NCBI GenBank assembly: GCA_017935025.1
Contig: JAGBIL010000015.1
Span: 1 to 50,430 of the forward strand
DNA from: Opitutales bacterium
GTDB taxonomy: Bacteria > Verrucomicrobiota > Verrucomicrobiia > Opitutales > UBA953
Length of the DNA stretch: 50,430 bases
Direction of reading: 5' to 3'
Shown here: piece by piece, positions 2,695 through 48,783 of the stretch
Layout: the number at the start of each line of letters is the position of its first letter
Position numbering within the stretch: the stretch's first letter is position 1
Made by a program: the position numbers and the translations under genes
Notes under the pieces: generated by a model
Told to the model about the DNA's origin: nothing
The model's input: the letters and a program-made list of their open reading frames with translations, nothing else
Database searches by the model: none

Positions 2695-3362
2695 TCTGCG
2701 TTATTCCGGTGAGAGGCGGGAGCAAGGGCGTGCCCGGAAAGAATTTGAGAACAACGAGCTCCGGCAAAACGTTGCTTGCGCAAGCAATCGAGAAAGCGCG
2801 GGCAGTGTGCGGGAATCGGGTAACCGTGCTTGCGGATACGGACGAACTCGCACAACACGCAGAGAGAGCGGGCGCGTGGGACGTTTGGCGCGACGGACGC
2901 AACACTCCGGATTTTGAGGACGTAAGCGTGAGGCTGGCGGCGTGGAAGCGGGAACGGCCGGTTAACCCGGGCGGGATTGTGGTGCTGTTGCAGTGTACAT
3001 CGCCGAATGTCAGCCGGGAAACGCTTGCCCAATTCGTCGATGCGGCGCGGCGGCTGAACAGCGGCGAAGCTCTCCTCGCGGTTTCCCCGCTAAACAAAAA
3101 GCCGAACGCGCTTTTCGAAATCGGCGGCGACGGCTCCCTGCGCCCGCTGAACCCGATCGCCCCTGCGGTAACATTCCCGAGGCAAGCCTTGCCGCCGGCG
3201 TGGTGGTTTTGCGGCGCGCTCAGTGCATTTTACAAAGACGCCATCGATCGCGGGAAACCTTCGGTTTTCTCCGGGCTTAAACTCATACCGTTTTTCATCC
3301 CGGAACACGAAGCAAGCGATATCGACCGCGAAGAGGATTTTCCGAACGGAGAAAACAACTGA
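2691..3362 (+). CDS. CMP-N-acetylneuraminate (nonulosonate) cytidylyltransferase
   Basis: The N-terminus IPVRGGSKGVPGKNLR (residues 4-19) is the signature of NeuA-type cytidylyltransferases, which bind CTP and activate sialic or related sugars to CMP-sugars. Further family features are LLQCTSPNVS (residues about 100-110), the equivalent of the usual LQPTSP/R, and a late D-I-D-x-E-x-D segment (DIDREEDF) near the C-terminus that matches the metal-binding end of NeuA proteins. The 223-residue length is normal. The gene overlaps both neighbours (4 bases upstream, 1 base downstream) and so belongs to one transcription unit with the GT29-like gene. No NeuB or NeuC homologue is visible, so the acid sugar would have to come from the host cell or the environment. 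Confidence 0.8.
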   Translation: MICVIPVRGGSKGVPGKNLRTTSSGKTLLAQAIEKARAVCGNRVTVLADTDELAQHAERAGAWDVWRDGRNTPDFEDVSVRLAAWKRERPVNPGGIVVLLQCTSPNVSRETLAQFVDAARRLNSGEALLAVSPLNKKPNALFEIGGDGSLRPLNPIAPAVTFPRQALPPAWWFCGALSAFYKDAIDRGKPSVFSGLKLIPFFIPEHEASDIDREEDFPNGENN

Positions 3363-4077: not shown

Positions 4078-4772
4078 TCTCTAAAAATTTTCGGCGGATT
4101 TTGCGCGGAAATGCTACACAAATAAAGCACTACAAGACGCGTGTCTTCGGTGTGTGCAACCTCGACCTTTACGAGGCAAACAAAGCGGCGGGAACGTTTC
4201 GGATGCCGGTGCTTGAGCCGGCAAACGTTCCCGTTCCCGAAAAGCTGATTCCGTTCAATGTCGCCGTGCGCCTCAACCGCGTTCCCGCCGGGCGCGGCGT
4301 GCATTTCTTTCTCGACGACTATCAGTTCGAACGCGTATGGAACGCCCCGGAACGTTACGTCGAAACGCTACGCCGATTCGACTGCGTGTTTACACCCGAT
4401 TTCAGTCTCTACTTAGACATGCCCCCGGCAATGAAAATTTGGAACATTTACCGCGCGCGAACAATCGGGCAGTTTTGGCAACGCGAAGGCGTGCGCGTCG
4501 TTCCCGCGCTCTCTTGGGCAGAACCGGAAAGCTTCGAATACTGCTTCGACGGACTGCCGCGCGGCTCAACTCTCGCCGTAGCGCGTATCGGCGTAGAATG
4601 TAATGCATATTTCGGATACATTTGGAACGCAGGTTTCGCAGAAGCCTTGCGGAGACTTCAACCGGAAAAGATATTTTTCTACGGCAAAAAACACCCGCTC
4701 CCGCAAACCGACGCCAACGTCTTTTTCTTCGAAAACGACCGCATAAAAAGTCTCAGGGCAAAATGTAATTAA
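4020..4772 (+). CDS. DUF4417 domain protein
   Basis: The core from about residue 75 matches how I remember DUF4417, a family common in phages and mobile elements: IPFNVAVR, then GVHFFLDDYQFERVWN, TPDFSLYLDMP, ARTIGQFWQREGVRVVP, FDGLPRGSTLAV. The function is not known. The longest frame begins at 4020, inside the previous gene, which is a large overlap for this operon. The true start may be an internal codon such as GTG in VFGVCNLD or the ATG of MPVLEP near 4203, so the 5' end is uncertain. The stop overlaps the convergent integrase stop by 4 bases. Confidence 0.75.
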   Translation: MLEATCVRLRNRVHRLERLISKNFRRILRGNATQIKHYKTRVFGVCNLDLYEANKAAGTFRMPVLEPANVPVPEKLIPFNVAVRLNRVPAGRGVHFFLDDYQFERVWNAPERYVETLRRFDCVFTPDFSLYLDMPPAMKIWNIYRARTIGQFWQREGVRVVPALSWAEPESFEYCFDGLPRGSTLAVARIGVECNAYFGYIWNAGFAEALRRLQPEKIFFYGKKHPLPQTDANVFFFENDRIKSLRAKCN

Positions 4773-5911
4773 ATTTTAAATTCAAGTTGCTTGTCATTCG
4801 GGCGCAGGGCAAAGAATTTCTCCGCATCCTCACGCGGCTGGTTCACACCTTTGTAGTGCATGAAAAGCGTGCGCGTGTTTGTGTGGCGCGTCGCAAGAAT
4901 CGTTTTCCCGTCATCCATATTCCACGAAGAAAGCATCGTCGCAAAAGTGTGCCGCAGGACATTCGTTTTCCAGTTACACGCCGCAGAAATGCGCATTTGC
5001 GTTTTCGCGCACGGGAACGGAACGGCTTCGCTTTCCTTTGAAAGCGGGCGATACGCGGCAAGCCACGCAAAGACGGTCGCGCCGTTGTTCGGCAAATACT
5101 GCGGAAGAATCAGCCAATCGTCGCGCGTTTTGCAAATTTCTGCGGGAACGCGAATCGTCTTCCGCTCAAAATCAATCCACTCCCAACGCATTTTACGCGC
5201 CTCGCTCGTGCGAAGCCCGGCAAAAAGCCGCAGGGCAAAAAAAGGAACAAGCCGCGGATGATTTTTCTCCAAAAACCGCAAGGCAAATTCCGCTTCGGCA
5301 TACGACCAAATTTCAACCCGCGCCGACGGAATCCGCGGGAACAGGCGCAAATCCACGGAAGGCACTTCAACAATCCAACGCTTAGCGGATTTACACCACG
5401 AAAGGAAATTGCGCACGCTGTCCCAAAGATTTCTCAGTGAACGCGGCGAAAGCTCCCGATGCGAAAAAAGCCAATCGGAAAGCTCGCTCCCGCGCACGGA
5501 ACTTAATTCGCGTCCCTGCCAGTAAGCACAGAATTTCCGCCCGTCGCGCTCAATTGCGCGAAGATGCGTCGCACTTCGCCCGGATCCCTTCAACCACTCG
5601 ACAAAACCCTCGAAAGCAACGTCCGCCGGAGGAACATTCCCCACGGGCGCAACATAATACTTTTTCCACCAAATCACGGCTTGAAGCGGATCAAAATCAC
5701 CGCAAATATTTCTGATTTTGCGGAGCAACTCCGCATCCGCGCCGCTCACTTTCGCCACAGGCGTTCCCGCCGAAAGCGTTTCAGCAAAGGCTTCCATGGC
5801 TTCCCGCGTCGTAAAACAACGCGAAACACGCCGCCCGTCAACACGCCGCTCAAAAACCCACGGCTGACGCTTTCGCTTCGGGAAAAAATACATGTTTTTG
5901 GCAATTTTCAT
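4769..5911 (-). CDS. Tyrosine recombinase (phage-type integrase)
   Basis: The 380-residue protein has the usual two-part layout: an N-terminal SAM-like core-binding region (residues about 70-180, GSGRSATHLRAIERDGRKFC) and a C-terminal catalytic domain. Active-site residues can be seen: first Arg in FAGLRTSEARKM, Lys candidates after it, His-Arg-type box in VLRHTFATML, His in TRHTNTRTL, and the Tyr nucleophile in FMHYKG. The start used is the ATG at 5911 (MKIAKNMYFF); the frame stays open further upstream, but only across the terminator and the tRNA gene, which is not coding. It lies beside tRNA-Ser and reads away from it, consistent with integration at that tRNA. No directionality factor is visible. 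Confidence 0.88.
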   Translation of the reverse strand: MKIAKNMYFFPKRKRQPWVFERRVDGRRVSRCFTTREAMEAFAETLSAGTPVAKVSGADAELLRKIRNICGDFDPLQAVIWWKKYYVAPVGNVPPADVAFEGFVEWLKGSGRSATHLRAIERDGRKFCAYWQGRELSSVRGSELSDWLFSHRELSPRSLRNLWDSVRNFLSWCKSAKRWIVEVPSVDLRLFPRIPSARVEIWSYAEAEFALRFLEKNHPRLVPFFALRLFAGLRTSEARKMRWEWIDFERKTIRVPAEICKTRDDWLILPQYLPNNGATVFAWLAAYRPLSKESEAVPFPCAKTQMRISAACNWKTNVLRHTFATMLSSWNMDDGKTILATRHTNTRTLFMHYKGVNQPREDAEKFFALRPNDKQLEFKI

Positions 5912-6065
5912 AATTTTTGAACCGTAAAGAACCGAAAAATTAAAATCAACCGAAAAACAGAAAAAAACCTTGCAATTAGGAAAAACAAAGCTCAATTTCG
6001 TAAAAGATGACAACACAAGCAACCCACAAAAACATTGGGCTTGCCGCAAAATCCCGCAATCAGCG

Positions 6066-6096
6066 CAAAAAAAGAGGCGACCGCGCGGTCGCCCCC
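6066..6096 (-). terminator. Rho-independent terminator after tRNA-Ser
   Basis: On the minus strand GGCGACC-GCGC-GGTCGCC folds into a strong GC stem and is followed by TCTTTTTTT. It lies 6 bases beyond the tRNA CCA end and before the integrase gene. Confidence 0.85.
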
Positions 6097-6101
6097 AAAA
6101 G

Positions 6102-6189
<88 letters not shown>

Positions 6190-20159: not shown

Positions 20160-20196
20160 GACGAAAACGCTCCCGGAAACGGGGGCGTTTTTGTTT
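20160..20196 (+). terminator. Rho-independent terminator after prs
   Basis: ACGCTCCCG (20167-20175), loop GAAA, CGGGGGCGT (20180-20188), then TTTTTG. One G-U pair; otherwise perfect. Confidence 0.88.
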
Positions 20197-20230: not shown

Positions 20231-20270
20231 CAAAACGCGTTCCTGCCGAGCTTTGCGGGAACGCGTTTTT
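20231..20270 (-). terminator. Terminator of the lptF-like gene, built from paired CGGGAACG motifs
   Basis: AAAACGCGTTCCTGC (from 20232) pairs with GCGGGAACGCGTTTT (to 20269) around a short loop. The right arm holds a perfect octamer and the left arm a copy with one substitution (CGTTCCTG). It is 18 bases beyond the stop at 20288 on the minus strand. Confidence 0.8.
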
Positions 20271-23810: not shown

Positions 23811-24845
23811 TTAACGTCCGCCGAAAAGCGGGCAGGAACGCGAGAACGTGACTCCGTGCTCCAACAGAATTTCATTAAATTTTTCGGATTCCACCTGCCC
23901 GGAACCGCCCTGTTCCTGCAAGGCCTGCAAAAGCTCTTTTCCTTCGGGACTGAGCACGGTAACGGAAACATCCATTGAGCGCAACGCGCCGAGAGTTTTG
24001 GACTGGAAATTCTCGTCGAAAACGACGGAACCGGCGCTCGCCGCAATAGATTTGTCAAAAGTAACAATCGTCGTGTCGGGATAAATATCGCGCAATTTTT
24101 GGACCAACTTAGAATTGTTGACGGTGGCGATTTTAGTTTTCCCGTCGGAAAAATCGTCAAACCAGAAAAACACGGAGCAATCGACGATTCCGTCCACGAG
24201 GAAGTTCTGCATTTCCGTGCGCCACGAGCTGACGGAATATTTTTTCTTGTCGGACGGATCTTCGATTTGTTCGCCGCTTTTCCAGAATTTCGACGGAATC
24301 GAAGCGGACTCGGAATCGCCTTTTTGTCCGATAGCGTAAGGAAGCGCGAACTCAAACGTATCCTTTGCGTTCAAAACGGCGCGGTAAAATCCGTAAACGA
24401 GATTTCCCGCATTCGAGGACGTTTTGGAACCGAACGGCGATTTGTGCGCGATTTTGTAGGAAACGGCGCAAAGGTCGCCCTGGAGCAACTCCATCGAGCC
24501 GCGTTCCCGCCGGATACGGTCCTGCGGGCGGGAGAAAAACATCAGCTCCGGAGCCGAGTATTTTTCGAGGTTCGCAACGTCGCTTTCGTAGCGGGCTTCA
24601 AACCAGAAATTGCCGTCATCGGGCATCGACGCGGAAAGCAAATCGTCCTGCATCGGGTCGAGAAGCATTCCGGAATCGGCATTGGTGGCGAGCGTGGAAA
24701 TCGTTTTGTCGTAAATACGCAACATATTCACGGCGATATTCGTTACAAACATCACGAGAACAATCATGATTGCGGTTGCCGCCATCAGCTCGACCAAAGT
24801 AAAGCCGCGGCGGAGGTTTTTCCGTTTTCCGAAAATCTTCTTCAT
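23811..24845 (-). CDS. Prepilin-type protein, GspJ-like (Verru_Chthon cassette-type)
   Basis: The 344-residue protein has a basic leader MKKIFGKRKNLRRG and a type IV prepilin cleavage site G/FTLVELMAATAIMIV (cleavage after residue 14), with the conserved Glu at +5. A hydrophobic helix follows, then a large globular periplasmic domain. Its size and place (last of four) fit the minor pseudopilin GspJ, or the corresponding C protein of the pseudopilin cassette of Verrucomicrobia. It is processed by a prepilin peptidase (not in this window). The gene follows the GspI-like gene by 28 bases. Confidence 0.85.
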   Translation of the reverse strand: MKKIFGKRKNLRRGFTLVELMAATAIMIVLVMFVTNIAVNMLRIYDKTISTLATNADSGMLLDPMQDDLLSASMPDDGNFWFEARYESDVANLEKYSAPELMFFSRPQDRIRRERGSMELLQGDLCAVSYKIAHKSPFGSKTSSNAGNLVYGFYRAVLNAKDTFEFALPYAIGQKGDSESASIPSKFWKSGEQIEDPSDKKKYSVSSWRTEMQNFLVDGIVDCSVFFWFDDFSDGKTKIATVNNSKLVQKLRDIYPDTTIVTFDKSIAASAGSVVFDENFQSKTLGALRSMDVSVTVLSPEGKELLQALQEQGGSGQVESEKFNEILLEHGVTFSRSCPLFGGR

Positions 24846-24873
24846 TGCGGGAACGCGCTCCTTTCTCTTGCAA

Positions 24874-25578
24874 TTAGCGGGAAACGACGAGGAACTGCGT
24901 CAGCACGGGAACCTGATCTTCCGTTTCCGCACTTCCGGCGGAATACGGGTAGATATCGACAGTCAGCGGCAAATACGGGAGCGCGTAGCGGTCGACGTTG
25001 CTCGGGAGCGACGAACCGACGGTGTACTGCGTCGCCAAAACTTCGCCCTTCGCGTCCATTTCCACATAGCGCCCTTCAAGCTGCGGCGAAAGGTAAACGC
25101 GCATGAAATACGCGGGGCCTTCCACGTTCAGATCCGTGAGTTCCGCTTGCGTCGGTGCACCGGAAGCGCTTTCGCACTTCACGATTTGAAGAACGTTCTG
25201 CGGTGTCGAATCATCCGACGGATTCAGGCGGCGTGGAACGCAAACGAGGAAAAGCGCATCGTTCCAATTTTTTCCCGTCTTGTTCTGAACCCACTCGTAA
25301 ACGTAGTCAAACGACGGCTTCGTCATTTGCCCGGATTTGACAAGCGCGTTCCCGTCGGGCCCGATTACCGTATCCACGGAAGAAAACGCGCGGTCCAGAC
25401 ACGAATAAACGCCGAGCGCCTGACGCGTCAGCACGTTTTTGCTGACCGTCTCAAACGTCGCATTCATCAGCCCCATCACGGAAAGCATCGCCACGCCCAA
25501 AACGGCGAGAGCAAGCAGGACTTCGACCAAACTGAACCCTTTTTTGCGGGAACGAATTGTTTTTCTGAAAATACTCAT
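24874..25578 (-). CDS. Prepilin-type protein, GspI-like
   Basis: From ATG 25578 the product has 234 residues. The leader MSIFRKTIRSRKKG is followed by FSLVEVLLALAVLGVAMLSV, the classic cleavage site and helix with Glu at +5. The L-A-V-L-x-V-A-M pattern in the helix is characteristic of GspI-type minor pseudopilins. The C-terminal domain is globular and secreted. A TTG two codons upstream is also in frame, but ATG is preferred. It lies third in the G-H-I-J order. The spacers to both neighbours are short (28 and 39 bases), consistent with one operon. Confidence 0.83.
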   Translation of the reverse strand: MSIFRKTIRSRKKGFSLVEVLLALAVLGVAMLSVMGLMNATFETVSKNVLTRQALGVYSCLDRAFSSVDTVIGPDGNALVKSGQMTKPSFDYVYEWVQNKTGKNWNDALFLVCVPRRLNPSDDSTPQNVLQIVKCESASGAPTQAELTDLNVEGPAYFMRVYLSPQLEGRYVEMDAKGEVLATQYTVGSSLPSNVDRYALPYLPLTVDIYPYSAGSAETEDQVPVLTQFLVVSR

Positions 25579-25617
25579 TTGCAAAAATTTCTTAGGTTAA
25601 AATCTGCGAAAAAAAAA

Positions 25618-26343
25618 TTATTCTTCGACGGACGCCTGCGCTTCCTCGTCGTCGCGCGTGAACGAAATCGCGCCGCTGCGATGAACCACGAATCCGGAAA
25701 CAAACGGATCTTTCCCGAAATCAATATCGCCGTTCGCAGGATCGACCTGCCCTTCCGCGAGCATCACGACGGCTTTCGTCATGTAGGTTTGCCCGTTGGA
25801 ATCGAAAAGATAAAGATACCAGTTTTTTTTGCCTTCGCCGAATTTCTGCCCTTTTGCGCGCACGTCGGGATCAATCGTCACCTCGGATTTTCCTTCGAGC
25901 AAATCATTGGCGCTTCGGGTTTTGACACCGGTGGCATTCGGCGGCACGAAATAAACGCCCTGCGGGAGCGTCACGCCTTCGCCGGCGGCGTACCAGTAGT
26001 AGTCGGAAATATTCGTTTTATCCACGCTCGGGCTTCCGCCGACAATCGGCTGAATGAAACGCAAATGCCGGTCCAAATCGTCCGGCTCGTTCAAAATAAG
26101 CACACCGGCGCGGATGTTTACGCGTTCGTTCACCGTGGGCTCGCGGTCCGGATTGCCGCCGAGCAAAGCCCGGCTCTGCGCCACGCGAAATTCCGCCGAA
26201 GCGATACGGCGGGCATCTTCCAAGCCGCGCGGGTTTCCGGGACGCAACCCGACAATCACCGAAGCGACAATGCCGATGATGGCAATCACCATCAAAATTT
26301 CAATCAGAGTGAAACCGCGTTTTCCGGATTTTTTGCGAAACAT
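25618..26343 (-). CDS. Prepilin-type protein, GspH-like
   Basis: The 241-residue protein opens MFRKKSGKRG/FTLIEILMVIAIIGI, a canonical prepilin leader and helix. The following segment with RRIASAEFRVAQSRALLGG resembles the H-type minor pseudopilin helix, in which early residues pack against the pilus. The rest is a large soluble domain of unknown specificity (YYWYAAGEGVTLPQGVYFVPP). It is the second of the four genes and separated from the GspG-like gene by a 61-base spacer that contains a perfect palindrome of two CGGGAACG octamers. Confidence 0.83.
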   Translation of the reverse strand: MFRKKSGKRGFTLIEILMVIAIIGIVASVIVGLRPGNPRGLEDARRIASAEFRVAQSRALLGGNPDREPTVNERVNIRAGVLILNEPDDLDRHLRFIQPIVGGSPSVDKTNISDYYWYAAGEGVTLPQGVYFVPPNATGVKTRSANDLLEGKSEVTIDPDVRAKGQKFGEGKKNWYLYLFDSNGQTYMTKAVVMLAEGQVDPANGDIDFGKDPFVSGFVVHRSGAISFTRDDEEAQASVEE

Positions 26344-26381
26344 GGAATAAAAATTTTCAGTTCAAAAGTTTTGTGCAGTCG

Positions 26382-26401
26382 GCGTTCCCGCGCGGGAACG
26401 C
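26382..26401. repeat. Perfect 20-bp palindrome of two fused CGGGAACG motifs
   Basis: GCGTTCCCGC and GCGGGAACGC abut directly. The palindrome is 3 bases beyond the GspG-like stop. No T-run follows on the minus strand, so it is not an ordinary terminator; it may be an RNA stem stabilising the gspG message, or simply two uptake-type motifs back to back. Confidence 0.85.
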
Positions 26402-26404
26402 ACC

Positions 26405-27016
26405 TTAGCGCCAGCTGTAGACGGATTCGTAATCGTCCCCGTCCTTTTCGGACGTGAAGATGATGACTTTTCCCATCATGCCTTTTTCGTTGCTTTCGTC
26501 GTCCGTCGCGTCTTCCGGCAGATACTGCGAGGGAATTTCGACGCGGCTGTTCCCCGTCGTATCCATCACGAGGTGAATGTTGTTGTTGCCGAAACCGTCG
26601 GCGAGTTTGCCGAACTCGATGGAGCCGTCGCCCTGCGTAAAATCTTCACCGGAAAACTCACAGAACGTCGTTGCCTTGCGGTTGTACTTCGTACGTTCGG
26701 CGCCTTTCAGTTTTTCGCCCGTTTCCGGATCTTTCCCGTAAAGCGATTTGACAAATGCTTCGCTGTTGGAGCCGTTCCCGAGATTGTAATGCGCATCGGA
26801 GCCGGAGGGAGCGTTTTGCCCGAGTGTCGGATAAAAACCGTAAGCCATTTTATACTGCTCGACAGCCGTCACCCACTCGTTGAAGCGAGCCTTGGTTTTC
26901 GTACGCGTCATAGCGTCCATAGCGCCGCCCGCAACAGGAATCATGATGCCGGCGAGCAAGCCGATAATGCCGATGACGACAAGAATTTCGATAAGGGTAA
27001 AACCGCGTTTTTTCAT
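26405..27016 (-). CDS. Major prepilin-type protein, GspG/PilA-like
   Basis: The 203-residue protein starts MKKRG/FTLIEILVVIGIIGLLAGIM, a short leader and the helix of major (pseudo)pilins with Glu at +5. The segment AMDAMTRTKTKARFNEWVTAVEQYKMAYGFYPTL (split: KARFNEWVTAVEQYKMAYG, then FYPTL) has the GspG-like helix that leads into the Y-x-x-x-x-G-F-Y-P-T consensus. It is longer than typical GspG (about 140-150), with an extra C-terminal domain. First gene of the four, so probably nearest to the promoter. No secretin, ATPase or platform gene is in the window, so type II secretion and type IV pilus roles cannot be separated. Confidence 0.87.
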   Translation of the reverse strand: MKKRGFTLIEILVVIGIIGLLAGIMIPVAGGAMDAMTRTKTKARFNEWVTAVEQYKMAYGFYPTLGQNAPSGSDAHYNLGNGSNSEAFVKSLYGKDPETGEKLKGAERTKYNRKATTFCEFSGEDFTQGDGSIEFGKLADGFGNNNIHLVMDTTGNSRVEIPSQYLPEDATDDESNEKGMMGKVIIFTSEKDGDDYESVYSWR

Positions 27017-29543: not shown

Positions 29544-30455
29544 ATGAACAAAGAACAGGCAACCGGGCATTTGCTCATTTTTACCTCGGCGCTGATTTTC
29601 GGGCTGAATTACCCGATTTCAAAGTGGTTGCTGACTGCGTATCTCACGCCGGAATTCTATATGTGCGCGCGCATGATTGTTTCCTGCGCGCTGTTTTGGG
29701 GACTTTCGCTCTGCGTGCCGCGCGAAAAACTCTCGCTCAAAGAAATCGGTATTTTCCTGCTGTGCTCCGTCGGCGGCGTAACGGGAAACCAACTCCTTTT
29801 TGTTTGGGGCTTGGATATGACTTCGCCGATAGATGCCTCCGTCATCACGTCCGGACGTCCGATTATCGTACTCCTGCTTTCCGCGCTGATTTTGCGGGAA
29901 CGCATCACACGCCTTAAAACGGCGGGCGTGCTCCTCGGCGCGGCGGGCGCAATTTGGCTGATTTTGCTTTCGGGAACAAGCGGCGGGAACGCGGCAAGTC
30001 TCGCCGGAGACCTTTGTATTTTCGCCAGCGGAGTCGTCTACGCGCTGTATTTTGTTTTCTCCAAACCGCTTTCGGAAAAATACCGCGCCGTAACGATGAT
30101 GAAATGGATGTTTCTCTTCGCCGCCATTCAGGTTTTGCCGTTTTACGTTCCCGCAATGCTGAATGCGGGAACGCCGCCGATTCTTGCCCCGCTCGACGCC
30201 AAAGCCGTCGCCGCAATGATTTTCGTGTTTTTCGGGACGTCATTTCTCGGCTATTTGCTGATTCCCATGGCGGTGCGCCGCATCCGCCCGACCACCGCGA
30301 GTATGTACAACAACCTGCACCCGATTGTCGCCTGCGTCCTCGCCGTCGCGCTCGCACAAGATACGCTCTCGCCCGAAAAAATACTGGCGGCGCTTGCTAT
30401 CCTCGGCGGCGTTTACATGGTCACCAAAAGCAACAGCGCGGCGGAAAATCCGTAG
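29544..30455 (+). CDS. DMT superfamily (EamA) permease
   Basis: The 303-residue membrane protein has ten hydrophobic helices arranged as two five-helix EamA repeats, the first from IFTSALIFGLNYPISKWLL and the second from SLAGDLCIFASGVVYALYFVF. EamA motifs ALIFGLNYPISK and the PxxA-type end RPTTASMYNNLHPIVACVLAV are visible. Such exporters carry small metabolites or nucleotide-sugar-like solutes across the inner membrane; the substrate cannot be told. It follows repeat A with no Shine-Dalgarno and is followed by the large repeat-rich gap. Confidence 0.87.
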   Translation: MNKEQATGHLLIFTSALIFGLNYPISKWLLTAYLTPEFYMCARMIVSCALFWGLSLCVPREKLSLKEIGIFLLCSVGGVTGNQLLFVWGLDMTSPIDASVITSGRPIIVLLLSALILRERITRLKTAGVLLGAAGAIWLILLSGTSGGNAASLAGDLCIFASGVVYALYFVFSKPLSEKYRAVTMMKWMFLFAAIQVLPFYVPAMLNAGTPPILAPLDAKAVAAMIFVFFGTSFLGYLLIPMAVRRIRPTTASMYNNLHPIVACVLAVALAQDTLSPEKILAALAILGGVYMVTKSNSAAENP

Positions 30456-37664: not shown

Positions 37665-37706
37665 ACCAAAGAACGTTCCCGCAAATTCGCGGGAACGTTC
37701 TTTTTG
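37665..37706 (+). terminator. Terminator after frr built from an inverted CGGGAACG pair
   Basis: AAAGAACGTTCCCGC (37668-37682) pairs perfectly with 37689-37703 around loop AAATTC, followed by TTTTTG. Both arms contain the complete octamer plus its preferred GC flank. Confidence 0.93.
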
Positions 37707-37728: not shown

Positions 37729-40713
37729 TTATTTCTGCACCGGAATACCGCCCTTCGTTACGCTGAGAATCGGATAGATTTCCGCCATGGTGCCGAATTT
37801 TCCGATTCCGTCGAGAATGACGAGCTTAAGCGCCGTTGTCGCCGTTTTCGGGAATTCCAGCGTTTTCATTCCTCGATTGGGAGAGTCGTTGCGATAGGTC
37901 GCAATCTTCGTCCATTTACCGTCATCGGTTTTCGCGAAGAGCTCGGCGTGCTTGACATTACCGTTATCTCCGCTCTGGCGCGGCAGGAATTTAAGCCCGT
38001 CGAACGCGAGTGACTGCTTGAACGTTACGGTGATTTCAAACGGAGGAGCATCGTTCACGCCCTTCGTGTCGTATTTGGAATGCCAATACGTTCCTTCGTC
38101 TCCGTCCCAAAGCGCGGAAGCGTCGCCGTCGGAGCCCTTTCCGTGTTCACTACTGGCAGTAACATCGAGAATCAGGTTTACGGGAACGGCATTTTTCACG
38201 CCTTCCGGAACGATTCGCCTGATGTTGAGCGATTTGATTTCAAAACCGTTTTCAGCATCACCGATTTTTTCGAGCGGGAACACAAACGACGTATACTTGT
38301 GCGCATCGGGGAAAAGTGTACGCACGGGAGCGCCGATTTCCTTGCCGTCGGCAAGAAGTTTCAGCGTGCGCTTTTCCGCGACGAACGTAAGCGTTACATC
38401 GCGGTCTGTCGGCACAACGTAGTCAAACATATATTCCCATGTATCGCGTGTGATTCCGAGCTTTCCGGTCTCCGCCTGAACGAAAAGGTCTCCCGTCGGA
38501 CCGGAGAAAAGCACTTGTTTTCCGCCCTTTTCAGCAGAATCCTTCATCCCGGCGCGGTGCCGGATGCGAAGTTCCGCAACGTAGTTCGGAGCCACGCCGT
38601 AGATACCCGTTTCAACAGACGTTCCCGCGGGAACGCTCTTTTCAAGCGAGAACAGCACGTCGCTTCCCGCCTCCGGTGTAACGACGTATTCCGGATTGGA
38701 AAGCGGCGCATAGTCAACGGCTTTAACGAGTTTCTGGAAGTCACGAAAGTTCGTGTCTTCGCCGGTGTTCCAGGTTTTTTCCGCGAAAACGGCGCAACTC
38801 TGGCGAATGCGGTCGTAAAGATCGAAATCCGTCAACCCCAAGTCTCGGCAGAACGAATTGTCGTTCCAAACCGCCCAGGATGCACCGAGCATTTTCGGAT
38901 ATCCGGGAATGATCTCTTCCTTGTGCGCCATTTTGTGCGGCTGCCAGTTTTTGGAGTACAGGAAGTTCAAGTCGAGCACGTCACCGTAACCGCCCCGGCT
39001 TCCGGTTCCGCTCGGCACAACGTAAGACCAAACGTCGATGATGTTGACGAGGTCAAAATTGTGCTCAAGCGCGACAAGCGGATTCTGCCAGCCGTGATTC
39101 CAAACGTTGATTTGCGCTCCCGTACCGTCAACCGGGGTTTTACCCTTTTTGACAGAAAGACTTCCCCAAAGGCGCGGCGTGTATCCGCGACTCTTGATGT
39201 ATTTGATCATCGCATCGGCAAACGCGCGATAATCTTCCGGATCTCCGTAGTATTCGTCCGTTCCGAAGTGGATGACCGGAGTGCGGAAAACGGGTTCCTT
39301 GCCGTCTTTCCCGACGAGATATTCGTCGAAGACAGACTGAACGAAATCAAGCGTTTCTTCCCGGTACGTTTTTCCCGTTTTTTCGTCGTAAATATCGTTC
39401 GAAGCATCCAACATCGCAGTGCGTTCGACATCGTGAGCCTTCGTCACCTTCCCGCGGTACATCAAATCCGGACGTACGCGGACAAAACTCATGGCGTGCC
39501 CGGGAACGTCAAATTCGGGAACGACGGTTACGCCGTAAAGTTTCGCTAAATCAATGAGCTTTCCGAACTCCTCTTTTGTATAAAATCGGTCCGTTGCCGT
39601 AAGCGGCGTGCCGTCTTTACCGACGACATCGGATTCCAGACGGAATGCTGTCGGCGCAGCCTTCAGGACTTCCGCGATTGCGGCTTTTTTCTGTTCCGGC
39701 GTAGCATCCTTCCCGTTCGGAATTTGCGTGTAATTATACATCCAAATGAAGTTGTCATTCAGGTGGATGTGATAATCGTTCATTTTGTAATAGGACATGG
39801 TTTTGAGCACATCCTCGACGGATTTCATCGTTACCGGCTTGCGGCCGACATCGTACATAAAGCCGCGAAGCGGATACTGCGGGTAGTCGATGGCCGTGCC
39901 GCACGGGAACGTGTTGTTGTGCTGTTTGAAAACCTGAAGAATAGTCCGTGTGCCCCAAAAAGCGCCGAGCGGGTCGGACGCGACAACGCGCAAGCCGTCT
40001 TCTCCGGAAATGAGCGCGTAGGCTTCCTTTCCGAGGTTGCCCAACTCCGCATCCGGAGCAAGAGCAATACAAATATCTTTCTTACCGGGACGCGCCTGTT
40101 CCAGAACTTTAACTTCGCGACCGAAAATATCGGAAAGTTCCTTCGCAAAAAGTTCCACGCGTGCTTTCAAGGTCGGTTCGCCGACATTTGCGCAGGTTTC
40201 GGGAACGATCAGAGCGAAATCTTCGTCAGGAACGAAAGCCGAAGATCCCGCGGCACCGCTCCACTCCTGAAGCGCGGGAACAACAGTAGGCTTTGCTACG
40301 CGGGGCCCGTTTTTCGCAAGAATCATTTCGACGACGGGAACGGCGACTTCAAACGTCGGTGTTACCGCCGTGTTCCCGTCGGCATCGGTAAGAGCAAACG
40401 TGATTTTCGTCGTCTTCGGCGAAATCGGATTGCGAATTTTTCCGTCAAAATTGATGAGTTGTTCATAAGTCGTGCCGACGATTTTCGCCGTTACTCCGGC
40501 GGGAAGGTTTTTGTAGACAAGCGTCGCTCCCGTGAGATCCAGATTCTGCTCAGGAGAAAACGTCTTCGCCGTAGCAGCGGCGAGGCTCATCGCTGTCACT
40601 GCGACAGTTTCCTGCGCAAGTGCGGGAACACCGACAAACGGAAGTTTTTCAACACCGGTAAATCCGGCAACGGAAATCGCCGCAAAAACGGCGGTACAGG
40701 TCGTTTTTTTCAT
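37729..40713 (-). CDS. Secreted beta-N-acetylhexosaminidase (GH20) with C-terminal F5/8-type domain
   Basis: The 994-residue protein starts with a signal peptide (MKKTTCTAVFAAISVAGFTG). An N-terminal beta-rich domain leads to a GH20b-like domain (about residues 150-280) and the catalytic (beta/alpha)8 barrel beginning YPLRGFMYDVGRKPV near 281. The D-E catalytic pair is in HFGTDEYYG near residue 485, and the Trp-rich pocket is in ASWAVWND. After residue about 670 comes a region with WEYMFDYVVPTDRDVT, and the end (WDGDEGTYWHSKYD, FEITVTFKQ) is a discoidin/F5-8C carbohydrate-binding-type domain. It removes terminal GlcNAc or GalNAc from glycans such as mucins or chitin-like chains in the periplasm or outside. 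It is convergent with frr. Confidence 0.92.
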   Translation of the reverse strand: MKKTTCTAVFAAISVAGFTGVEKLPFVGVPALAQETVAVTAMSLAAATAKTFSPEQNLDLTGATLVYKNLPAGVTAKIVGTTYEQLINFDGKIRNPISPKTTKITFALTDADGNTAVTPTFEVAVPVVEMILAKNGPRVAKPTVVPALQEWSGAAGSSAFVPDEDFALIVPETCANVGEPTLKARVELFAKELSDIFGREVKVLEQARPGKKDICIALAPDAELGNLGKEAYALISGEDGLRVVASDPLGAFWGTRTILQVFKQHNNTFPCGTAIDYPQYPLRGFMYDVGRKPVTMKSVEDVLKTMSYYKMNDYHIHLNDNFIWMYNYTQIPNGKDATPEQKKAAIAEVLKAAPTAFRLESDVVGKDGTPLTATDRFYTKEEFGKLIDLAKLYGVTVVPEFDVPGHAMSFVRVRPDLMYRGKVTKAHDVERTAMLDASNDIYDEKTGKTYREETLDFVQSVFDEYLVGKDGKEPVFRTPVIHFGTDEYYGDPEDYRAFADAMIKYIKSRGYTPRLWGSLSVKKGKTPVDGTGAQINVWNHGWQNPLVALEHNFDLVNIIDVWSYVVPSGTGSRGGYGDVLDLNFLYSKNWQPHKMAHKEEIIPGYPKMLGASWAVWNDNSFCRDLGLTDFDLYDRIRQSCAVFAEKTWNTGEDTNFRDFQKLVKAVDYAPLSNPEYVVTPEAGSDVLFSLEKSVPAGTSVETGIYGVAPNYVAELRIRHRAGMKDSAEKGGKQVLFSGPTGDLFVQAETGKLGITRDTWEYMFDYVVPTDRDVTLTFVAEKRTLKLLADGKEIGAPVRTLFPDAHKYTSFVFPLEKIGDAENGFEIKSLNIRRIVPEGVKNAVPVNLILDVTASSEHGKGSDGDASALWDGDEGTYWHSKYDTKGVNDAPPFEITVTFKQSLAFDGLKFLPRQSGDNGNVKHAELFAKTDDGKWTKIATYRNDSPNRGMKTLEFPKTATTALKLVILDGIGKFGTMAEIYPILSVTKGGIPVQK

Positions 40714-42633: not shown

Positions 42634-42680
42634 ACAAAAAAAACGTTCCCGCGAATTTCCTTGCGGGAACGTTTTTGTAT
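42634..42680. terminator. Bidirectional terminator built from an inverted CGGGAACG pair
   Basis: AAAAACGTTCCCGC (42639-42652) pairs perfectly with 42663-42676; the + side continues TGTAT and the minus side has a run of eight T. It lies between convergent kamA-like and pflB. Confidence 0.93.
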
Positions 42681-47860: not shown

Positions 47861-47906
47861 AAAAAAAACGTTCCCGTGAGGAAATCCCCGCGGGAACGTT
47901 TTTTGA
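47861..47906 (-). terminator. Terminator of the outer-membrane protein gene, inverted CGGGAACG pair
   Basis: AAAAAACGTTCCCG (47863-47876) pairs with CGGGAACGTTTTTT (47891-47904), with a small internal loop; the minus strand side ends in a run of eight T. It follows the barrel protein's stop at 47923. Confidence 0.92.
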
Positions 47907-47922
47907 TTACGGCAATCCGGAA

Positions 47923-48783
47923 TTAGTAACGGAAGTTAATCCACGCGCCCCACCAGAGGTTGGAGCTGTTGTTGTCCCAGTTGTAAGCCTGATCGTCGCC
48001 GTCGTTGTTGTACGCATAGCGAACACCGATGCCGACATCCGTCCCTTCGTTAATCGGGCAGGAAAGGTCCGCCGTCACAGCGACATAACCATAGTCGTTC
48101 CCGCCCTTGGGAAGCGTGAACGTACCATAGCCGGGAACACCAAGAGCGCCGCGTTGGTCGCCCCAAACCTTGTTGCAATCAATGTAACCATAAACCGCAC
48201 CGAGAGCGAGCGTCGCGCCGTTGAGGTCGAACGCCTTTTTCAGACCGAGCTCATAGGAGAGCTGTTCGCGGTTCCAGTCGTAACGGACATAAGCCGAACC
48301 CTGAAGATCCCACTCAGGGTCGCCGTCGGAGAGCGAAAGCGTTTTCGTGAGTCCGAAGTAAATTTCATTCGTACGATTGACATACGCACGGTTCATTCCG
48401 ATCCCGGAGATACGGTCGTTCCATCCGGTATACTTGTAGCCGAAATCAAGCATAAGGGTTTCGCCGATCGCGATTTCGGAACCGAGCGTAAAGGAGCCTT
48501 CGTCGGAAATCGGCATACCTTTGCGTTCATTGCTCGTCGGCGACATCCAGAAGAAGTCGGCATACGGCGTGAAAACAAGGTCGGAAGACGTGCTCGGAGC
48601 GAAATACTTAAACGAGATGGTCGTTTGCATATTTTCGTTCACATAGCGCTTACCTTCCTTGACGTAGCGGCTTTCGAAATCAAACTTCGCGCTGACCGCG
48701 AAATCGTTTTCCTGTGCGACTTCCTGTGCGAACGCGGAAACACCGAAAGCGGCGACCGCAACTGCAGTAATGATTTTTTTCAT
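47923..48783 (-). CDS. Outer-membrane beta-barrel protein (TorF-like porin family)
   Basis: The 286-residue protein has a signal peptide (MKKIITAVAVAAFGVSAFA) and a mature part of alternating amphipathic strands: FAVSAKFDFESRYVKEGKRY, MLDFGYKYTGW, GYVAVTADLSCPI, VGIGVRYAYNNDG. It ends with an aromatic residue after a strand (AWINFRY), the normal C-terminal signal for barrel insertion by BamA. The SRYV-x-E-G segment near the N-terminus is like that of TorF-type putative porins. The specificity cannot be predicted. A motif-pair terminator follows. The promoter region upstream (48784-48850) is A/T-rich without clear boxes. Confidence 0.82.
   Translation of the reverse strand: MKKIITAVAVAAFGVSAFAQEVAQENDFAVSAKFDFESRYVKEGKRYVNENMQTTISFKYFAPSTSSDLVFTPYADFFWMSPTSNERKGMPISDEGSFTLGSEIAIGETLMLDFGYKYTGWNDRISGIGMNRAYVNRTNEIYFGLTKTLSLSDGDPEWDLQGSAYVRYDWNREQLSYELGLKKAFDLNGATLALGAVYGYIDCNKVWGDQRGALGVPGYGTFTLPKGGNDYGYVAVTADLSCPINEGTDVGIGVRYAYNNDGDDQAYNWDNNSSNLWWGAWINFRY

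Follow-up and report, generated by a model that had tools for sequence, protein, structure and literature searches.

The octamer CGTTCCCG/CGGGAACG is repeated thousands of times in the genome studied here, and its facing pairs are supported, on every sequence test available to us, as the stems of intrinsic terminators. We consider it probable that the octamer is an uptake-type mark of self DNA, belonging to a Spyradosoma-like genus, which is kept genome-wide and has been co-opted into those terminators.

Distribution of the octamer

The window, by which we mean the whole stretch of 50,430 nucleotides that was analysed, is contig C35 of a source assembly of 2.03 Mb (G000), a Spyradosoma-like Opitutales MAG. 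Its ribosome recycling factor has the same sequence as that of a goat-rectum Opitutales MAG and shares 94% identity with that of Candidatus Spyradosoma merdigallinarum, Spyradosoma being a genus of Verrucomicrobiota; from this one protein we infer the name Spyradosoma-like for the genus. The genomes with which it is compared are all probably metagenome assemblies as well. Gene-level analyses draw on samples of about 17-25% of G000, G001, G004 and G006, and on a smaller fraction of the other genomes; two of the loci used below, L025 and L023, are parts of G001 and G007 respectively and are not counted as independent.

As a control for the frequency of the octamer we use the same word reversed. 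In the whole of G000 the octamer occurs 5,434 times and its reversal 91 times, so that, like a DNA uptake sequence (DUS), it is a short word present in some 1,000 copies or more throughout the genome. Within the genus, six of the eight genomes are rich in the octamer (5,192-6,550 copies) and two, G001 and G006, are depleted. The word occurs 31-222 times in 17 genomes from other genera of the family and 22-464 times in 13 genomes from other families of the order, and in these 30 genomes it is mostly below or near its own reversed-word control. Thus, among the eight genomes of the genus and the 30 others in which it was counted, abundance of the octamer is restricted to this one genus.

Genome: octamer copies; tail-to-tail/head-to-head pairs 3-20 nt apart; distinct predicted terminators with an exact octamer
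G000: 5,434; 133/38; 29 of 74
G001: 1,362; 73/7; 29 of 82
G002: 6,161; 171/96; 3 of 5
G003: 6,550; 176/58; 5 of 15
G004: 5,322; 175/77; 18 of 41
G005: 5,274; 136/43; 4 of 7
G006: 546; 15/0; 5 of 43
G007: 5,192; 130/33; 7 of 18
G008: terminators only, 0 of 5
G009: terminators only, 0 of 9

A sample of 446,216 bases of G000 contains 1,170 octamers, 193 of them wholly intergenic, at an overall density of 2.6 per kb (3.51 per kb in intergenic and 2.49-2.50 per kb in coding DNA). The motif extends in this sample to gCGTTCCCG(C/T)(G/A), near-variants of the octamer are enriched at some positions only, and spacings below 25 bp are in deficit (29 versus 69.5). In G004 we also observe intergenic runs of directly repeated octamers (for example in L163 and L169); direct neighbours at most 30 nt apart number 46 in 386 kb of that genome, across 15 loci, and 4 in 446 kb of G000. 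A different word, CGTACCCG, was considered as a dialect of a sister genus, being enriched in a sample of G008, but the whole of G008 holds 163 copies against 141 of the reversed word, and in the other genomes of the family outside the genus the word is below or near its control; we read it as a local repeat.

Six stretches of at least 2.5 kb in the G000 sample are poor in the octamer, one of them being a ribosomal protein operon (three of its seven genes scanned). No clear depletion is found in the stretch of the window that bears an integrase. In that stretch (4101-6189), a phage-type integrase gene lies beside a tRNA-Ser gene and adjoins a DUF4417/nuclease-like gene, a probable integrative element. 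Elsewhere, a viral contig (L212) has 8 octamers in one intergenic stretch (3028-3287), with a matching hairpin, and none in the remainder of the 13.8 kb examined; this contig was left out of the analysis. Other repeats are present too. Loci of G006 (for example L086 and L091) carry a short repeat, CACCAACCC, in about 70 copies over 81 kb, many of them near contig ends, as well as inverted CTCCCGCTAA units. In G000, the window and C2 near 56827 (L046) show an AT-rich repeated 12-mer, AATTTCAATTTG (9 copies in the window), and a hairpin whose arms are TTGAAATT/AATTTCAA.

Facing pairs and gene ends

The sequence-only reading held that two facing octamers form the stem of a rho-independent terminator at four sites of the window, at one of them with a single substitution. 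The facing octamers are indeed present at all four sites, exactly so at three of them (starts 37674/37690, 42644/42664 and 47869/47891), and the fourth has the one substitution described, in its left arm. The octamer features of the window are as follows.

1-50430, both orientations: octamer copies, 145 in the window, 13 of them outside the picked open reading frames
20161-20196, + strand: second terminator after the PRPP synthetase gene (predicted), CGCTCCCG (one mismatch) facing a copy with two mismatches
20232-20269, unstranded: predicted terminator hairpin, right arm exact (20256, -), left arm CGTTCCTG (one mismatch)
23811-27016, - strand: four prepilin-type genes in an operon next to RuvX; the octamer pair 26383-26400 lies between two of the four
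26383-26400, unstranded: exact tail-to-tail pair with a 2-nt loop, between two prepilin genes; it has no T-run and is no terminator by our criteria
30146-30173, unstranded: exact tail-to-tail pair within an EamA transporter gene, not a terminator
37668-37703, unstranded: predicted bidirectional terminator hairpin, octamers at 37674-37681 (+) and 37690-37697 (-)
38620-38635, unstranded: exact tail-to-tail pair without a loop, within a GH20 gene, not a terminator
42639-42676, unstranded: predicted bidirectional terminator hairpin, octamers at 42644 (+) and 42664 (-)
47863-47904, - strand: predicted terminator hairpin, octamers at 47869 (+) and 47891 (-)

Three of the six exact tail-to-tail pairs at most 30 nt apart in the window are therefore predicted terminators. 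The hairpin at 37668 separates the ribosome recycling factor gene (+) from the GH20 gene (-). Flanking the hairpin at 42639 are genes for a radical-SAM aminomutase-like protein (+) and a pyruvate-formate-lyase-like protein (-), and flanking that at 20232 are genes for PRPP synthetase (+) and LptF/LptG (-). Because these three lie between convergent genes and are flanked by an A-tract and a T-tract, they could act in both directions. The hairpin at 47863 is found 24 nt past the stop codon of the gene at 47923-48783 (-). The predicted RNA folds of the four hairpins have energies of -21.3 to -27.5 kcal/mol, whichever strand is taken, and z-scores of -4.0 to -7.6.

It was also claimed that such pairs are hard to get by chance. 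We called genes by script on the 446,216-base sample and counted the intergenic pairs 0-30 nt apart, of which 26 are tail-to-tail, 4 head-to-head and 4 direct. When the 193 intergenic octamers are scattered randomly over the intergenic part of the sample (1000 trials), the mean number of tail-to-tail pairs is 4.7 and the maximum 13, in agreement with the claim. The same orientation bias, which inverted pairs of DUS exhibit at gene ends, is found across the whole of G000, where 198 tail-to-tail and 69 head-to-head pairs lie 0-30 nt apart. For pairs 3-20 nt apart, the number expected from density, of either kind, is about 65 in G000, about 4 in G001 and about 0.7 in G006.

The gene-end check that accompanied the claim gives a positive result: 24 of the 26 intergenic tail-to-tail pairs fall within 60 nt of the 3' end of a gene, compared with 52 of the 141 remaining intergenic octamers and 506 of 1800 randomly chosen intergenic sites. 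The corresponding numbers with a T-run are 18 of 26, 6 of 141 and 59 of 1800. The pairs are thus what intrinsic terminators would be expected to look like, GC-rich hairpins with a T-run just past the 3' end of a gene.

Approaching the question from the side of the terminators, we scanned the gene ends that have room for a hairpin (n=288), using a predictor of our own construction modelled on TransTerm-type scoring. A terminator is predicted at 88 of these ends, versus 3.0 in shuffled sequences, and the 88 ends correspond to 74 distinct hairpins. The octamer is exact in both arms of 22 hairpins and within two mismatches per arm in 32, and 2 have it head-to-head; altogether 29 of the 74 (about 39%) carry an exact octamer. 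Shuffling the letters within the terminator arms yields 0.02 octamer stems, against the 22 observed with both arms exact. Position, T-run, orientation bias, fold energy and the persistence of such hairpins in G001 (see below) all support the proposal that facing octamers serve as stems of rho-independent terminators, and the hairpins would presumably end transcripts in the cell.

Related genomes carry similar hairpins at the same place. An octamer stem is found 3' of the recycling factor gene in L021, L022 (with one mismatch), L023, L024 and G004, with loops that differ; at this place L025 (in G001) and L026, which lies outside the genus as judged by its octamer count, have a terminator with an unrelated stem.

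Maintenance and decay within the genus

A tree built from four type IV pilus genes divides the genus into the clades {G000, G005, G003, G007, G002} and {G001, G006, G004}. Within the latter, the protein tree groups G001 with G006 (62%) and the nucleotide tree G004 with G006 (97%). Since G004, which is rich in the octamer, groups with the two depleted genomes, the rich state is most simply regarded as ancestral.

To follow the conservation of the octamer, we compare orthologous codon sites at which the amino acids are identical. The four pilus genes hold 13 octamer sites, which is too few, and larger samples were accordingly used. Of the octamers of G000, 22 of 25 have an exact counterpart in G004, 27 of 28 in G007, 23 of 27 in G003 and 21 of 26 in G005, versus 19%, 32%, 36% and 49%, respectively, for all other 8-mers. 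In the depleted genomes the octamers of G000 are exact at 7 of 45 sites (G001; control 28%) and 5 of 21 sites (G006; control 22%), and in the reverse direction 7 of 8 octamers of G001 and 5 of 7 of G006 are exact in G000. Coding copies in G001 and G006 thus decay at about the control rate.

A stricter control consists of identical codon pairs outside octamers. By this measure 147 of 176 octamer sites are conserved between rich genomes (six genome pairs pooled), versus 49 of 114 control sites; for the deep pairs only, the figures are 53 of 74 versus 23 of 63. Pooled pairs count the same site repeatedly, so that their p-values are too small. Toward G001 we find 43 of 123 versus 23 of 72, and toward G006 23 of 80 versus 7 of 56 (p 0.035), a weak retention. 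The octamer is, in sum, kept at orthologous sites among the rich genomes, as a DUS is within its group; it is not so kept in G001, and at most weakly in G006.

The near-variants of the octamer bear the marks one would expect of such decay. The excess of one-mismatch copies per exact copy is 0.38-0.51 in G000, G003, G004, G005 and G007, 1.06 in G002 (a 20 kb sample), 1.53 in G001 and 3.76 in G006, which fits the decay of copies that were formerly exact. In G006, the word CGTTCTCG, which is found in terminator stems and occurs as a near-variant 27 times against 7 expected, was considered as a new word of that genome; because several other variants are enriched too, we read it as erosion accompanied by compensating changes.

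The opposite history, in which G001 and G006 have only begun to gain the octamer and the terminators are its cradle and not its refuge, would account for their tail-to-tail pairs, which far exceed the density-based chance (73 in G001 and 15 in G006). We judge it distinctly unlikely, since it sits badly with the grouping of the octamer-rich G004 with these two genomes and with the one-sided sharing of octamers reported above. Moreover, substitutions at position 4 are enriched over expectation in G001 (2.07) and G006 (2.87) and not in the six rich genomes (0.61-1.19), and at 18 codon sites where G004 and clade A (the genus clade other than that of G004) both have the octamer, G001 and G006 are exact in 2 cases and one mismatch away in 10. 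Convergent gain of octamers at permissive sites may nevertheless lie behind shared positions.

In G001, decay has not struck single copies and terminators equally. The density of coding octamers is about 2.5 per kb in G000, 0.59 in G001 and 0.29 in G006, yet the share of terminators with an exact octamer in G001 (29 of 82) is close to that in G000, which indicates that octamer terminators outlast single copies in G001. In G006, the genome in which the process is most advanced, both the terminator share and the coding density have fallen, and the loss of the octamer from its terminators (5 of 43) argues that termination does not keep the word indefinitely. An orthologous terminator reads GCGTTCCCGC...GCGGGAACGC in G000 and GCGTTCTCGC...GCGAGAGCGC in G006, where it is fully paired with one G-T.

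What keeps the octamer

The octamer is strongly conserved within genes, which speaks against termination as the reason for its upkeep. Its likeliest role is that of a DNA uptake sequence, which the type IV pilus and competence machinery would recognise. Uptake, together with recombination that favours octamer-bearing DNA, would restore lost copies, and thousands of them would be kept, mostly within genes; such a restored mark of self DNA would account for copies in the thousands, each of little importance by itself, better than selection acting copy by copy, and uptake is the presumed maintaining force. With the word and its complement everywhere, facing stems would form readily: two facing copies past a stop codon may easily give a GC-rich stem of about 10-15 bp, which with a T-run makes an intrinsic terminator, and selection would then retain the hairpin for termination.

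The genes that such a process needs are present. ComEC, DprA and PilT are found in all eight genomes of the genus, but competence and type IV pilus machinery is found in relatives without the octamer as well, ComEC (22 of 23 genomes) and DprA (13 of 14), genus included in both counts, being equally common there. These genes permit, and do not prove, the uptake reading. By our searches the competence genes are intact in G001 and G006 also, so that loss of such a gene does not explain the decay of the octamer in these two genomes. Prepilin-type matches number 6-11 per genome of the genus, none singled out as a receptor; the prepilin operon of the window, which all eight genomes possess, does not distinguish rich from depleted ones, and a small pilin on C10 has matches in loci of G006 and G004. 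As further observations on these gene families, extra clusters of four prepilin-type matches occur in both octamer-depleted genomes (G001:C36 and G006:C62), and matches to the PilT family number four in G001 and in G006 and three in each of the six rich genomes.

Other forces could in principle maintain an iterated octamer. A signal for recombination or chromosome organisation, of the Chi or KOPS type, would share with our word its length of eight bases and its many copies in coding DNA, and would leave the terminators incidental; the orientation of the octamer does follow GC skew weakly (Spearman correlation of 0.42 across 43 bins of ten kb). Signals of this type are strongly polar, however, and the G-rich orientation lies on the G-rich strand in only about 54.5% of cases (637 of 1,168), the sign of the contig's GC skew serving as a proxy. 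The density of 2.6 per kb far exceeds that of any Chi of which we are aware, and we regard this explanation as very unlikely. Spread by a mobile or duplicating terminator hairpin, suggested by the longer sequence CGTTCCCGCGAGGA...TCCCCACGGGAACG that several stems share, is more improbable still, to the point of hardly being credible: most octamers are single and within genes (977 of 1,170 not wholly intergenic), and loops and outer stems vary among terminators, orthologous terminators included. Another known class of octamer with extreme iteration is the cyanobacterial HIP1 (GCGATCGC), which some lineages lack or have in few copies and for which upkeep by a DNA methyltransferase tied to mismatch repair or restriction has been proposed; according to the available part of that study, methyltransferases are generally present where HIPs are frequent (Elhai 2015, PMC4390886). 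Upkeep of this kind, with terminator use secondary, would fit the decay in G001 and G006 as a loss of the enzyme. HIPs, however, are palindromic and linked to methyltransferases (PMC4390886, available text), whereas CGTTCCCG differs from its reverse complement, and no palindrome as long as four bases lies within it; its extended motif has a visible polarity, and the word 'terminator' is absent from the available text of the HIP paper (PMC4390886). We consider this explanation unlikely.

For uptake sequences, use in terminators is documented. In the accessible portion of Kingsford 2007 (PMC1852404), uptake sequences are reported in 54-55% of likely operon-end terminators of two Neisseria strains and in 16-29% of those of Pasteurellaceae. 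The likeness to Neisseria and Haemophilus that the sequence-only reading drew is therefore apt in the sense that the octamer works like their sequences, a use documented in that portion of PMC1852404; it may itself be such a sequence. As with the DUS of Neisseriaceae, we have a short non-palindromic word in thousands of copies, common to related species, whose inverted pairs act, here by prediction, as rho-independent terminators in one preferred configuration. Unlike the DUS, the octamer belongs to another phylum (Verrucomicrobiota), is unrelated in sequence and is known here from sequence alone; its copies exceed the figures given for DUS in the available parts of PMC3630211 and PMC1852404 (up to 3,603), although a shorter word raises counts. 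The USS of Pasteurellaceae, AAGTGCGGT, is used in pairs in the same way, flanked by A- and T-tracts; the octamer, unlike the USS, has no A-run, its A/T tracts lie outside, and its extension (C/T)(G/A) points into the loop. The 16-29% for USS, from the accessible portion of its source, compares with our figure of about 39% (29 of 74), obtained with a different predictor.

A 2026 survey of thousands of genomes names, in the part of its text available, only Neisseriaceae and Pasteurellaceae for uptake-sequence terminators (PMC13020248). Neither the octamer nor Verrucomicrobiota is mentioned in the available parts of PMC1852404, PMC2397512, PMC3630211, PMC4390886 and PMC13020248. A literature search with the letters of the octamer, covering few subscription papers, returned no such repeat by title among the matches listed; one for 'DNA uptake sequence' with Verrucomicrobi returned no report, only review matches unrelated to such a word; and one for Spyradosoma returned no report of the octamer, the name being absent from the available text of PMC8035907.

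Taken together with the uptake reading, these patterns suggest, tentatively but quite plausibly, the life history of an uptake sequence in a genus of gut Verrucomicrobiota. The word would have been gained at the root of the genus. Transformation would have kept it up almost perfectly in six lineages, and two would have let it go; in these two the single copies decay, and the terminators persist longest, as fossils (fully in G001, partly in G006) whose pairing is kept by compensating changes even once the word has gone. If this is true, uptake-sequence terminators would have arisen independently a third time, and outside the Proteobacteria. With rich sister species beside decaying ones, an example from so distant a phylum opens three questions: which force holds such words in place, whether terminators arise as a by-product, and by what route a genome loses the system. 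And if the uptake reading is right, a single octamer would serve to mark natural transformation among gut bacteria that have not been cultured.
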